Shown here one piece after another: positions 7,669 through 21,779 of a stretch of 64,000 nt of DNA (within the stretch, counting starts at the first letter, position 1; each line of letters starts with the position of its first letter). The notes under the pieces were generated by a model. It saw nothing but the letters and a program-made list of their open reading frames with translations, ran no database searches and was not told where the DNA came from. Source of the DNA: an uncultured Acidobacteriia bacterium (GTDB lineage Bacteria > Acidobacteriota > Terriglobia > Bryobacterales > Bryobacteraceae); assembly GCA_903825445.1 (NCBI GenBank), contig CAIKAS010000277.1, forward strand, positions 20,639 through 84,638. Reading direction: 5' to 3'. Both the position numbers and the translations under genes were made by a program.

Positions 7669-8364
7669 CTAGGCGGCATGCTGCATTGGGGCCGCGTTTT
7701 TTGCGTCGCGGGGCGTTTTACAAAACGAAGCCGATTCGCTGGATGACGGCAGTGGGGCGGCGAGCATGGCGTCGATTCGCAGCGTTTCCCGGAGCCCTTC
7801 GAGGCGGAATTCAGCTGCGGATTGTTGGGTGAGTTGCTTTTCGATGGATCGCCAGTCGCAGATGCCCATATAAGAGAGATCCGTGCCGTCTTCGGTGGAT
7901 TCGTTGCGGTAGAGGCGATCGGTCTGGAGTTTTCGGAGTTCGGCGGTGCATTTGTGCATGAGGCGGTGGGCCTGGGAGCGGGCGCGGTCGACGGAGATCT
8001 GGAGTTTGGCCTGGGATTCTACCTGCATGGGGTCGGGGATGTTGCCGGTATCGTCGCCTGTTTCGTGGTCGGTGGGGACCATGCTGGCTTCGACGAGACC
8101 GCAGCGGCGGAGACGCCACATGGCGCGGCGGATTTCGTTGACCAGTTCGTGTTCGAGCATGCCTTGCGGGGCTAGGTCGTGGTTAAGGGCCTTGTCGAGG
8201 TCGGCGTAGGCGGATTGCTCGGCGGGGCGGATGAAGTCGTGGTCGGTGAAGAGGCCGTGGGTGGTGGCGTTCTTCGAGGATGTTGTTTTGCCTTCTTCGG
8301 TGCGGGGTCCGGTGGAGGATCGGGCGTTGATCGCGTTGGCGATGCTTTGCGCGGGACTGGACAT
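7669..8364 (-). CDS. Conserved hypothetical protein (NARSSTGPRTEEGK family)
   Basis: From ATG at 8364: MSSPAQSIANAINARSSTGPRTEEGKTTSSKNATTHGLF; pattern I associate with a recurrent acidobacterial family of unknown function. Longer ORF start at 8631 looks unsupported. Confidence 0.6.
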   Translation of the reverse strand: MSSPAQSIANAINARSSTGPRTEEGKTTSSKNATTHGLFTDHDFIRPAEQSAYADLDKALNHDLAPQGMLEHELVNEIRRAMWRLRRCGLVEASMVPTDHETGDDTGNIPDPMQVESQAKLQISVDRARSQAHRLMHKCTAELRKLQTDRLYRNESTEDGTDLSYMGICDWRSIEKQLTQQSAAEFRLEGLRETLRIDAMLAAPLPSSSESASFCKTPRDAKNAAPMQHAA

Positions 8365-8600
8365 TTTCTGGTTCCTTTTTTCGGCGTGAATTGGGGAGCG
8401 AATGCGGCGGCTCTCCTGGAGACAGAGTTGCATGCTGGAAGGGGGTCGAAAGGCGGGAGGGCGGTAAGGTGATGAAAACAGGGTGACGATATATTTTGAA
8501 ATCTGTGACTCACCCACGACCGGGCTTCGCTCCGGCCACAACGAGGGCTGACATGGGGATGAGAGGACGCAGCTATGGAGTGCGTAAAGGGTAGTTCCGC

Positions 8601-8636
8601 CTAACGTGTCTTGACCAAAGCTTATGGACACTAACG
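8601..8636. repeat. CTAACG direct repeats flanking a TGTC...GACA segment
   Basis: CTAACG|TGTCTTGACCAAAGCTTATGGACA|CTAACG immediately downstream of the RT-nuclease operon. Confidence 0.6.
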
Positions 8637-8639
8637 CAG

Positions 8640-9359
8640 TCAGCCAGTTCTGTATCTACTGAAGGGCTCGGCGATATAATTAACAATCTCAGATAGCACA
8701 ACCGCCGCCGTCATACCTGCCGTCGTCATGCATAACGTTTCGAGATCATCCTCAAGGTAAATTCCAGACCGAGGGTTAACCAAACAGACTGTTTTAATAT
8801 CGTATTTCTTTATGCTGAAATTAAGAGCACAGTAGCAAAGCAACTGTCTGATATCAGCGCCGCGAAATTGCCGTTCACCGGCCTTCACCTCGAAGAGTGT
8901 GTAATCTCCGAGCACATCGCCTACCGCTTCGTCGAGCCACCCACATCCGGGAAAAGACGGCTTAGCAAGAAGGTTTCTTATAGGGCGGCCAGAAAAAAAT
9001 GCGCTTAGACTCTTTGCAACCGTTGCTGCCTCGCGTAATCCATATTTACCCATCGGCTGCGGAGGCAGTCCAGAAGAGTGCGGCATTTTGGCAATGTAGG
9101 CCAAGGCTTCGCTCGCACACTGGGAGATAAGATTCTCGGGAAGATCTGGCACTGGGACTGATAGCCGCAGTGATGCAGCGAATAATAGAAAAGCACATTC
9201 GTTAACCAAACCCCTCTGGTCAGGCGGAACCAGCGAGTACAGGGGAGCGGCAAATCGGCATAACCTCACGTTGCGCGTCCGAATGTAAGGCTCCTCCATG
9301 GGTAACAGGGAGTTCCAGAAGGCAGAATGGGAAAGAGAGAAGCGCTTTTCGCTTATCAT
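8640..9359 (-). CDS. Putative PD-(D/E)xK-nuclease-like protein, RT-associated
   Basis: 239 aa; WLDEAVGDVLGDYTLFEVKAGERQFRGADIRQLLCYCALNF fits a D-x(n)-ExK core followed by a Q-rich helix; ATGA overlap with upstream RT gene. Confidence 0.65.
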   Translation of the reverse strand: MISEKRFSLSHSAFWNSLLPMEEPYIRTRNVRLCRFAAPLYSLVPPDQRGLVNECAFLLFAASLRLSVPVPDLPENLISQCASEALAYIAKMPHSSGLPPQPMGKYGLREAATVAKSLSAFFSGRPIRNLLAKPSFPGCGWLDEAVGDVLGDYTLFEVKAGERQFRGADIRQLLCYCALNFSIKKYDIKTVCLVNPRSGIYLEDDLETLCMTTAGMTAAVVLSEIVNYIAEPFSRYRTG

Positions 9360-11152
9360 AATGGCAAATCCCAGGTACGCCCATTGTTCTTCTCACCCAC
9401 CCACTTCATGAACTCCGAATCGGTTTCGCTGAATTCATCCCGAAACCTATGCCTCCAGTGTCTTCCCTCATCCCCTAAGATGTACGACGCTACGATTAGT
9501 GCCCGCTTTTCCCAAGGCGTCAGGATCGCAAAACGTTTCAGCTGTTCCGAAAGCCAATAGTCCACGCGTCGGCGAGTCATCGCGAGTAATACATCCCGTT
9601 TCACCATCATGTCGGTCTTTGGCCGGTGGTAGACGTCGATGAGCAATGCGTCTGTTTCCTCCGCGCGATCAAACGCCAAAATGTGAATTGCAAAACTGAG
9701 GTTCGCGGGAACCAAAAAAATATGCGAATTCTGGACGATAAGGTTACGAATCGTTTCAAACACTTCGAGCCTGATCTCCTCTGATAGCTCGTCTAACAGA
9801 CGGTGCAACACGATCGCGACGCTCGGGAAAATAGGATACAGTATCCGGAGGTTTCGTACTACTGAACGCGCTGCCGCATCACGAAGCAGTGGAGGAAGGA
9901 AGCGAATTGACTTCACGAGTTGGCGTGTGAGGCCTTCATCAATCCTGCTTTTGTTTAGCTCCCGCGACAGCATGCCCGTAATATCAAAGCGTGCAAGCTC
10001 CTCTCGGAGTTGCTCGTATTGCGCGTCTGCGGTAGGTGAATACGGATCGTACGCCAAGCGAAGGCCTAGGAACTCTTTTGCCGTTGCCTCATCTACAGAA
10101 TCGGCCGCTACTGGTTCTGCCATCGGCGATGATCGGGTGAATTCAGCCTTGGACATGAGCCGTGTCTTAGCCCGTGCGAGCGTGAGACCCTCATTGGCCA
10201 AGAGAACCTCACTAAGCTGTACGAGCGCGCTCTGTGCGGATGTGGCAGAATCAGCAAAGATCAGATAGTCATCAACAAACCTGCAAAAGCGAATGCCCGC
10301 GGCAAGTAGTAACCGATCTGTTCTGTTGAGCAGGAGTTCCGCGAGCAGACGAGCCGCGTTACCGCCTACGGGCAGACCGTAAGACGGGCCACCGGACAAA
10401 CGCTTCAGGATTTCCATGACTCGTTTGACCGCCTCAGTCTCCGTCGTAGCCTGCTTGAGCGCGTTCTCTAGTCGATGATGATAAATGCGCGGATAGAAGT
10501 CTGATATGTCGGTCGATATAACGAACTCAGCTGAATTGACGTATTCGAGAGCCGTGCGATGGAACATCGCCCAGCCGATTTCAGGATTGAAAAGTGTGTT
10601 GCGTTCATTAGAGAGATTGAATCGGTACGAGAAAATGATCTTTTTTTCGACTGGAAGTCGAGCTTTCTCAATATCGCTCCCAATTTCAATGAGTAACGCC
10701 AGAAGATATGCATTCCATATTGGGTCAATTTGAGACGCGGCACGAAATCCGTGGTAGCCGACACTCGCCAGGCCTGTGGAAAAATTTACGGGATACGTTC
10801 TTAGCCAGCGGTCAAAGTCCGCATCCAGAGACATCAGGAGCCGGGTAACAGCCTCTTCATCATCGTGAAACCAATGGTTCTCAAGCGGAAAGGGAAATAC
10901 GTCCGTGTCGCCGTGGTGGGCAACGTTACGAACGGCAAAAAGGGCGCTCTCTTTGCTTATAGCCATCAGGTCGAGTTCCTTCGGTTCGAACAACTGGGCC
11001 CCGTATTTGCAAGCTGCTCCAAACTGGCGGGACCGCGACGCTTTTGCTAGTTCATCTAACCGATCATAGCGACGTATTCGGCGGTCATGTCTCCTATCCC
11101 ATTGAACTTTCAGGAAACGGGACGACTGCGTCGCCGGGAACGGTTTCGACAA
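9356..11152 (-). CDS. Reverse transcriptase (RNA-directed DNA polymerase), UG/Abi defence-type candidate
   Basis: 598 aa; FVISTDISDFYPRIYHH (motif A), GGPSYGLPVGGNAARLLAEL (motif B), FCRFVDDYLIFAD (motif C); C-terminal about 230 aa helical, repeat-like. TTG start at 11152 uncertain. Confidence 0.88.
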   Translation of the reverse strand: MSKPFPATQSSRFLKVQWDRRHDRRIRRYDRLDELAKASRSRQFGAACKYGAQLFEPKELDLMAISKESALFAVRNVAHHGDTDVFPFPLENHWFHDDEEAVTRLLMSLDADFDRWLRTYPVNFSTGLASVGYHGFRAASQIDPIWNAYLLALLIEIGSDIEKARLPVEKKIIFSYRFNLSNERNTLFNPEIGWAMFHRTALEYVNSAEFVISTDISDFYPRIYHHRLENALKQATTETEAVKRVMEILKRLSGGPSYGLPVGGNAARLLAELLLNRTDRLLLAAGIRFCRFVDDYLIFADSATSAQSALVQLSEVLLANEGLTLARAKTRLMSKAEFTRSSPMAEPVAADSVDEATAKEFLGLRLAYDPYSPTADAQYEQLREELARFDITGMLSRELNKSRIDEGLTRQLVKSIRFLPPLLRDAAARSVVRNLRILYPIFPSVAIVLHRLLDELSEEIRLEVFETIRNLIVQNSHIFLVPANLSFAIHILAFDRAEETDALLIDVYHRPKTDMMVKRDVLLAMTRRRVDYWLSEQLKRFAILTPWEKRALIVASYILGDEGRHWRHRFRDEFSETDSEFMKWVGEKNNGRTWDLPL

Positions 11153-11180: not shown

Positions 11181-11301
11181 GTGGCTCCTATTCTGCGCGA
11201 CGGCGGCGACATCGATCCATGGCGGGTGATTCGTTCAAATCGACGGTATTGGGGGTACATGGGGATTTGAAGACGCTCTGGACTATCGAGTGTAACGTTA
11301 A

Positions 11302-11366
11302 CTATGTCCCCGGCTATACATGACGCGTACCGACCGGACAAAAAGTGGTACCGAACGGGGACATAG
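11302..11366. repeat. Perfect 11-bp inverted repeat CTATGTCCCCG ... CGGGGACATAG
   Basis: Arms 11302-11312 and 11356-11366, 43-bp spacer; adjacent 8-bp palindrome TAACGTTA at 11293-11300. Confidence 0.8.
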
Positions 11367-11457
11367 GTGAGAGGTAGTTCCGAAGCGGGCCTCAGACTGG
11401 CAGTGCCGACCCCGGCATGGGTCACGGGCTGCTGGACGGTTAAATTATCATGAGACA

Positions 11458-18914: not shown

Positions 18915-21779
18915 ATGCGATCTCAAAGAAAAAAACTCACATTGCTGGGCCCGGCCATCATTCTTGCGTCGGTGCTCTGCGGAACAATCTGGGGCCAGAG
19001 CGCCCTCACTACAATTCAGGACACTCTGTTCGATGCGGACGGCCAGCGGTACTATGGCTCGCTCACTATCCAATGGAGTACATTCGACACGAACAATCCG
19101 GGCACTATCGTGCAGCAGAGCCGAACTGTTCAGGTGGTCAACGGCAATCTGCTGGTTCAACTGGCGCCGAACAGCGCAGCCACGCCACCGGCAAACGTCT
19201 ACTCAGTCCTTTATCAAAGCGACGGAGATCAGCAGTACACCGAGACGTGGACGGTTCCGGTGAGCGCGACGCCACTACGAGTGGCGCAGGTGAGAACGGG
19301 AGCGGGCGTAGCGGGCTCGGGATCAGCAGGCGGGCTAACGGGCGGGAGTACAGGAACGGTGACGGAAGCGTCAGTAACCAACCTTGTATCCGACCTGAAT
19401 GCGCGGCCGATTAAGGGACCGGGTTACGGCACGAATGCTGTAGCGGTGGTCGACCAGAACGGACTCCTGGAAACAGCGGTGGGCAATCTGGGTGACTGTC
19501 TATTCGTCGATGGGACGACAGGACCGTGTACCTCCGGGCTCATACTGCCAACGTTCATTAACGGTGAGGTGCCTGGCGGCCTGGTGAATGGATTGAACGC
19601 CACGTTTACGCTGGCGAACACTCCTAGCGGAACCAGTCTTCTGCTGTTTCGCAATGGCATCCTGTTGCAGGCAGGAACAGACTATGCACTCACAGGCTCA
19701 ACTGTTCAGTTTGCGAGTGGCGCGATTCCACAGCCACAGGATACGCTGATGGCAACTTATCGACTCGACTCCGGTTCGAGTGGCAGTTCCGGGAGCCCGG
19801 CAACAGGGCCGAGCGGCGTGCCTGGCATCAACGGATGCGGCGCGGTGGGGACGGCGAGCAAGAGCGCAGCGTACCAGATACAGGCGTCGGACAACGGCTA
19901 TCTGCTCATTCAGACTACGAGCGCCGGTTTCGCGCTTCCCGTGACAGTTCCGGCTGTCGGCTGGTGCGCGGTGTTGCTAAACACGAACTCCGGCAGCATT
20001 GCGGTTAGCAACAATGGCAATGCGATCAACGGAGTGGTTGGAGCGTACGCGCTTGCGTCCACGAACGCGGTCGCTATGATTTCGGACGGGACGCGCTATT
20101 GGACGTCGGGCGCGAATGGACAGCAGGGTCCAACGGGCGCCACAGGCATACAAGGTGTGGCGGGGGCAACGGGGCCAAGTGGCGCGCAGGGTATTGCTGG
20201 TCCGACTGGCACTGCGGGTGCAGCTGGGGTTGCCGGCGCCACCGGACCACAGGGTGCGGTGGGAGCTACAGGGCTGAGTGGCGCGCAGGGTATCGCTGGT
20301 CCCACCGGCACAGCAGGGACCGCCGGTGTTGCCGGTGTTGCCGGTGCAACCGGACCACAAGGCGTAGCGGGAGCTACGGGATCAACGGGCGCGCAGGGAA
20401 TCGCTGGTCCTGCTGGCACCGGGGGTGCGACCGGTGCGGCAGGTCCCACCGGATCAGTGGGCGCAACCGGCGCTTCGCTTGTTTCACCAACTGCCAATCT
20501 GTTTACGGAAGTGACTCCGACGGTCCGCTACGTTGCATCGTCACTCACGTACGCCAATGGCTCAACCGTGAGTACATGGTCGGATTCCAGCGGTCATGGA
20601 AACAACGCTTCGCTTACAAGCGGTGCACCGGTGATGAATCGCCAGACCACCAGCGGGGTTCCGGCGGTACATTTCGGTGGGTCCGACTGGATGGGGATTC
20701 CCGGCAGCGCGAGTTTCAATCAGCAGTCCGCAACGGTGTGTACGGTTATCGAGAACATCAATCCGAGCAGCGCGACGATGGTCTACCTGAACCTTGGGTC
20801 GGGCGGCTCGGGTCCGGCGGACTGGTACCTGCAATCGGAGTCCAGCGGGCTTTACACAATTTCCGACGAGTATATGGCCGGAGAGAACACGGTGGCTTCC
20901 CTCGGCGTGCATCCGGCAGCGATGAGCGCGAGTTGCACGGCCATGAGTTCCAGCGCGGTAACTGCATACCGGCCGGACGGTTCGGTATACACTGGATCCG
21001 CTCTTGCCTCTGGCAGCGTAACGGGCGGGCAGATCGCCTCATGGACGACGGGCGGCAGCTATCAGTATGCGGGCAACATGTACGAGATCGACGTCTTTCC
21101 TTCAGCGTTGACCTTAAATCAGATTCAGGAGTGGTTCGCTTATTCGCGCGCCACTTACGGAACACCGCAGTACGGCGGACAAGTCGTAAGGATAACTAAA
21201 ACCGGCGACTCCATCACGGCTGGCGTCAACAGCACACTGGAGCTGAATATTCAGAATCAATCCTACCCGAACTGGAAATCAGGCCAGTTTATTCCTGTGG
21301 AACTAAACTATGGCCAGGGCGGCCAGACGCTTCAGGCGGTATCGGCTGGCACGGTGGCTGCGATCACTGCTGCATACAATTCCGGCTATGCGCTGAATGT
21401 TCTGGAGATCAGCTACGGATTCAACGATATTGTGCTGAACGCCGCCACTGCGGCAAGCGTGGAAGGTTACCTGAATACGTACATCTCGTCCATTCATACA
21501 GCCCAGCCCGGATGGATGATCCTGGTTGACACGGTGACGCCGTACAACGTGGCCGGGTGTGCTACCGATTCGATTCGAAATACGTTCAATTCGTGGCTTT
21601 TGGCCTCCCTGCCTGCGAACGTGAACGGGATCGTTAATTACACGGTGGATTCAGTAATGAATACATGTCAGGCGACGAACTCCATGTACTACACCGGCTA
21701 TCATCCGACGAATTCCGGGTACGAAAGACTGGCGAGGATCAGGCGTAATTATTTGGATCTGTTTATTGCCACGCACTAA
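18915..21779 (+). CDS. Secreted protein with collagen-like Gly-X-Y region, lectin/LamG-like segment and C-terminal SGNH hydrolase-like domain
   Basis: [25 protein letters not shown]... run; C-terminal [40 protein letters not shown]. Start ATG 18915 after AGGAG. Confidence 0.8.
20108..20476 (+). repeat. Imperfect tandem coding repeats (99 and 108 bp) encoding collagen-like triplets
   Basis: GGCGCGCAGGG landmark recurs at 20181, 20280 and 20388. Confidence 0.8.

Follow-up and report, generated by a model that had tools for sequence, protein, structure and literature searches.

Two overlapping genes and their protein families

The locus consists of two genes on the minus strand of the window, by which we mean the whole stretch of 64,000 nucleotides that was analyzed (Table 1). 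The first gene encodes a reverse transcriptase (RT) and the second, which begins within the end of the first, a PD-(D/E)XK nuclease. A TTG at 11152, first listed as the RT start (598 amino acids), was rejected in favor of the ATG at 10966, which has a ribosome-binding site upstream and fits both the homologs and the Drt8 profile: the homologs start just before GDTDxFPxP, and the profile alignment begins at residue 4 of the ATG-started protein. The ATG is thus the likely start, and the reading frame that follows contains no break.

Table 1. Genes, motifs and domains of the RT-nuclease locus, with positions in the window
Feature	Position	Strand	Basis
Drt8 (UG7-type) reverse transcriptase, 536 aa, ATG start	9356..10966	-	PADLOC Drt8, Pfam RVT_1, AlphaFold2
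RT domain	about residues 1-300 of the 536-aa RT	-	part of Drt8 RT
RT motif A, TDISDFYPRI	10484..10513	-	
RT motif B, GLPVGGNAARLLAE	10337..10378	-	alignment of relatives
RT motif C, FCRFVDDYLIFAD	10250..10288	-	alignment of relatives
Helical C-terminal domain, residues 313-527 (alphaRep/HEAT-like)	9386..10030	-	AlphaFold2 and alignment
Conserved block WEKRALIVASYILGDEGRHWR in the RT helical domain	9452-9514	-	alignment of relatives
Shine-Dalgarno-like AAGGAA, 9 nt 5' of the RT ATG	10976..10981	-	
RT-associated PD-(D/E)XK nuclease, 239 aa; start overlaps RT stop	8640..9359	-	PADLOC RTasPDDEXK, alignment, AlphaFold2
Nuclease catalytic block	8832..8954	-	alignment of relatives
Nuclease GxG...GD	8916-8954	-	
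Nuclease ExK	8877-8894	-	
Nuclease D..Q...Y	8832-8855	-	

In profile searches the RT matched the PADLOC family Drt8 at 3.5e-153 over residues 4-526, with RT_UG21 (4.6e-33) as the runner-up, and RVT_1 (3.9e-15) was the sole Pfam family found. The second protein matched PADLOC RTasPDDEXK at 1.1e-55 and nothing in Pfam. An alignment with 14 relatives revealed that motif B and both aspartates of motif C are invariant in the RT. The same holds for G138, G140, D148, E157, K159, D169, Q172 and Y176 of the nuclease across the 14 aligned loci, and the order D...ExK...Q...Y is that of RecB-family PD-(D/E)XK nucleases. No invariant cysteines able to hold an iron-sulphur cluster were found among the 14 aligned nucleases. 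A full-length UG7/Drt8 match that is clearly the best among UG families, a neighboring gene of the RT-associated PD-(D/E)XK family, and intact catalytic residues in both the RT (motif A aspartate, motif C DD) and the nuclease (D148/E157/K159/Q172) identify the pair as a DRT type 8 (DRT8) antiphage unit, with a probability of about 0.93. The two genes appear to form an operon, which combines a UG7 reverse transcriptase of class-1-like type with a PD-(D/E)XK nuclease of the RecB/Cas4 family.

Structure prediction points in the same direction. The AlphaFold2 model of the RT (mean pLDDT 87.5) shows an RT domain followed by almost only helices in residues 313-527, and its best solved matches in Foldseek were DRT4, UG15, DRT6, AbiA, Abi-P2 and AbiK, with group II intron RTs intermixed lower down. 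The matches span about 430-630 columns, and the first ones extend over both the RT and the helical domains, as is characteristic of class 1 UG/Abi RTs with their C-terminal alphaRep (HEAT-like) domain. Compared with solved class-1 enzymes, the RT reaches moderate TM-scores of 0.35-0.62 at 10-18% sequence identity, so that a chemistry shared with them is something we infer. The nuclease model (pLDDT 93) gave moderate matches as well, the closest folds being ACE1, Dna2, Cas4, AddAB and MGME1.

The similarity of the palm domain to group II RTs could also suggest that the RT comes from a group II intron, a DGR or a retron, whether intact or decayed, but we give this reading next to no weight. The Pfam search returned neither a maturase (GIIM) nor an HNH domain, and the Rfam search of the 64-kb window no intron RNA; a TR/VR-like repeat pair was not found in window bases 1-40,000, nor an msr-msd element next to the RT; and the intact frame and full-length Drt8 match speak against decay as well as against these families. 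Three 99-nt direct repeats at window positions 20136-20441 look like a collagen-like glycine-rich coding repeat.

These results confirm the observation behind the original prediction, which had recognized RT motifs A, B and C and a helical, HEAT-like C-terminus, had noted no maturase or HNH region and no intron or DGR hallmarks, and had proposed a structural comparison with Abi and DRT enzymes, whose folds the model does match. Its view of an Abi/DRT-like enzyme distinct from intron, DGR and retron RTs stands but was incomplete: the RT can be assigned to DRT type 8, the interval 10254-10535 holds motifs A to C only, and the partner nuclease gene was overlooked. The VDD in motif C, singled out as unusual, is indeed present; as an oddity it does not hold up, since the residue preceding DD varies among relatives (V in most, A in two) and VDD is an ordinary feature of the family, not distinctive in itself.

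Relatives, selection and acquisition

Relatives were collected from a one-genome-per-species scan, which gave nine close loci, and supplemented with two from the window's order, one from its phylum and two apparently equivalent ones from viral contigs. The sources of the nine scan loci include Geomonas, Syntrophus, Desulfosporosinus, an Akkermansia MAG, Bacteroidetes, a gammaproteobacterium and an archaeal MAG. Drt8 was matched by 14 of 14 RTs and RTasPDDEXK by 14 of 14 partners. The nuclease gene lies directly 3' of the RT in all DRT8 loci examined, and in nearly all of them its start overlaps the RT stop. Estimates of dN/dS were about 0.05 for both genes between E. coli forms and 0.06 and 0.09 between two Bacteroidales loci, values that are approximate as some dS are near saturation. 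Both proteins are under purifying selection and kept functional in these relatives.

Some neighboring genes were noted in passing. A trypsin-like protein is encoded upstream of DRT8 in locus L002 (5080-5802), and L061 (5213-6028) encodes one with weak similarity to it (26%), again upstream; no such protein was seen in the other DRT8 loci. This arrangement differs from the nuclease-protease pairs that occur in rare DRT variants (PMC12799240). In a genome of the window's family, an exonuclease-like gene of the RNase_T family overlaps the DRT8 RT start (L038, 2874-3551, minus strand).

The pair in the window has a GC content of 0.51 and a GC3 of 0.52-0.56, compared to 0.68-0.78 in neighbor genes, and none of 18 further genomes of the same genus has it. 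In the same-genus genome G009, some 0.5 kb separates the flanking tilS and metallophosphoesterase genes, and this space holds no RT. In the order, a threshold of 1e-40 gave matches in 4 of 257 genomes; one of the four matches, at 29% identity and without a partner gene, belongs to another UG family. The atypical GC3, the absence from the 18 same-genus genomes and the housekeeping-gene surroundings argue that the pair was horizontally acquired. The window copy is a rare acquired DRT8: only about 1% of the sampled relatives in its order or phylum carry one.

In E. coli the whole pair region is present in 105 of 5,426 complete genomes. In the three of these that were read, the pair is located 3' of the integrase gene within a P4-type satellite at tRNA-Thr. 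In locus L052, which belongs to a predicted virus, DRT8 is flanked by a DUF1367 gene and a DnaB gene. Phage collections contained no full DRT8 match, and matches in plasmid collections were at 27-36% identity, the range of other UG families.

Two further observations concern the immediate surroundings. An ORF with a IANAINARSSTGPRTEEGK stretch (window 7669-8631, minus strand) adjoins the pair and is likely to belong to a repetitive family, with 23 matches in the genome, many of them partial or broken. The gap upstream of the RT holds a long imperfect inverted repeat at about 11299-11371 (CTATGTCCCCG...CGGGGACATAG), which recurs once elsewhere in the genome as a short partial copy and has no copy in the 18 same-genus genomes. 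It was considered as a mobile-element end and rejected, given the single short partial copy and no transposase recognized there.

The question of a flanking RNA

DRT2, DRT9 and DRT10, which are class 2 UG RTs, depend on a cis-encoded template ncRNA, and DRT8 might use a noncoding RNA as they do. The window would offer room for it, with no supported coding sequence in the roughly 490 bp that separate the RT ATG from the next gene. We nevertheless consider this improbable. Pieces of this upstream region fold no better than shuffled sequences (z +1.3, +2.3 and -0.7), the Rfam search of the 64-kb window matched no RNA, and a blast comparison of the 900-bp flanks of all loci found no stretch in common.

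The E. coli loci are particularly informative. One strain carries a DRT8 variant 84% identical to the common form. The two become alike 13 bp ahead of the RT ATG, and their similarity ends 40 bp past the nuclease stop; this last stretch of 40 bp contains a stable hairpin. What the two variants have in common is only a ribosome-binding site, RT, nuclease and terminator. Upstream, the integrase gene overlaps the RT start in the common form and 316 bp of unrelated sequence are found in the variant. The weaker similarity further 3' belongs to sequence that 1,074 E. coli genomes contain, roughly tenfold more than have DRT8. In L052 just 125 and 48 bp flank the pair. The lack of a common flank in E. 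coli, the tight flanks in L052 and the gene overlap in L038 make a conserved flanking ncRNA as in DRT2, DRT9 and DRT10 unlikely; an RNA inside the coding sequence or encoded elsewhere would still be compatible with these results.

Possible mechanism and comparison with known systems

DRT8, a UG7 RT with a PD-(D/E)XK nuclease, was reportedly classified in the 2022 survey by Mestre et al., whose scheme PADLOC carries. Papers from 2025-2026 describe it as RT plus PD-(D/E)XK (PMC12596737), and phage protection has been reported for the family (PMC13314766, PMC13213688), to which the window copy is assigned by sequence. The pair is an ordinary member of this known, little-understood defense family. 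In the literature consulted, DRT8 is one of a small number of named DRT types for which no mechanism has been published, and papers from 2026 give its mechanism as unresolved (PMC13314766, PMC13213688).

Class 1 UG RTs carry a helical repeat domain and, where studied, make DNA without a nucleic-acid template, sometimes protein-primed (PMC13174585, PMC9508834). As the RT has the class 1 architecture by model and fold match, untemplated synthesis is what we would best infer for it. By analogy to DRT4, AbiK and Abi-P2, it seems reasonably likely that the enzyme works as an oligomer in this way, probably primed on a hydroxyl residue of its own. The loop between helices 2 and 3, the site of the priming tyrosine in AbiK and Abi-P2 (PMC9508834), has no conserved tyrosine in the model and alignment of DRT8 RTs. 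This tyrosine is a feature of AbiK and Abi-P2 and not class-wide; primer sites differ within the class, as with Y666 in DRT3b (PMC13174585), and therefore it is not a strict class requirement.

The nearest folds of the nuclease act on single-stranded DNA and DNA ends. That the system brings its own nuclease of such a family suggests a balance of synthesis and clearing. The nuclease may trim or clear what the RT makes as long as the cell is healthy, and a phage that interferes with this clearing would let DNA accumulate and make the infected cell stop growing, a proposal that we hold tentatively and at somewhat less than even odds. A precedent for toxic DNA is DRT4, whose random ssDNA turns toxic once its 3' end is shielded by a phage protein (PMC13213688). 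Nearly as likely as the balance is that RT-made DNA, free or RT-bound, activates or targets the nuclease to cut phage or host DNA, with the nuclease as toxin and the RT as sensor. That the two proteins work as one unit is implied by how strictly they are paired and by the overlap of their genes. The catalytic residues of the nuclease are invariant, and many antiphage systems have effectors of the PD-(D/E)XK type; the nearest folds, however, are end-processing and ssDNA nucleases and not sequence-unspecific dsDNA effectors, which is not decisive.

Taken one step further, the balance of synthesis and clearing could make DRT8 an RNA-free synthesis-degradation pair, in which one operon provides both a DNA polymerase that works untemplated and an ssDNA nuclease to go with it, and the trigger would be a phage that blocks the nuclease or protects the DNA. 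We regard this general formulation as rather doubtful. In the literature we found no DRT described with such a two-protein logic of RNA-free polymerase and own nuclease. The cassette of ribosome-binding site, RT, nuclease and terminator in the two E. coli variants and the invariance of nuclease residues across distant phyla simplify the question to two proteins, apparently with no flanking RNA: which DNA the RT makes, and whether the nuclease cuts it.

Among known systems, the pair in the window agrees with DRT type 8 in the order and overlap of the genes and in matching over the full length of both RT and nuclease. It differs by sequence divergence only, with 37% identity to the E. coli form for the RT and 35% for the nuclease. 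DRT4 (UG15) and DRT6 are the best solved-fold matches over the RT and helical domains and likewise have no flanking ncRNA seen; they are single-gene systems by description (PMC13213688), without the dedicated nuclease partner that DRT8 has. The AbiK, Abi-P2 and AbiA polymerases resemble the DRT8 RT in the palm, the unique helical domain and their fold, whereas the equivalent priming loop in DRT8 lacks the conserved tyrosine and a partner nuclease is present. With the RecB-family nucleases Cas4, Dna2, AddAB and ACE1, the DRT8 nuclease has the D...ExK...Q...Y order and the fold in common, but it does without invariant iron-sulphur cysteines and has an N-terminal helical part of its own.
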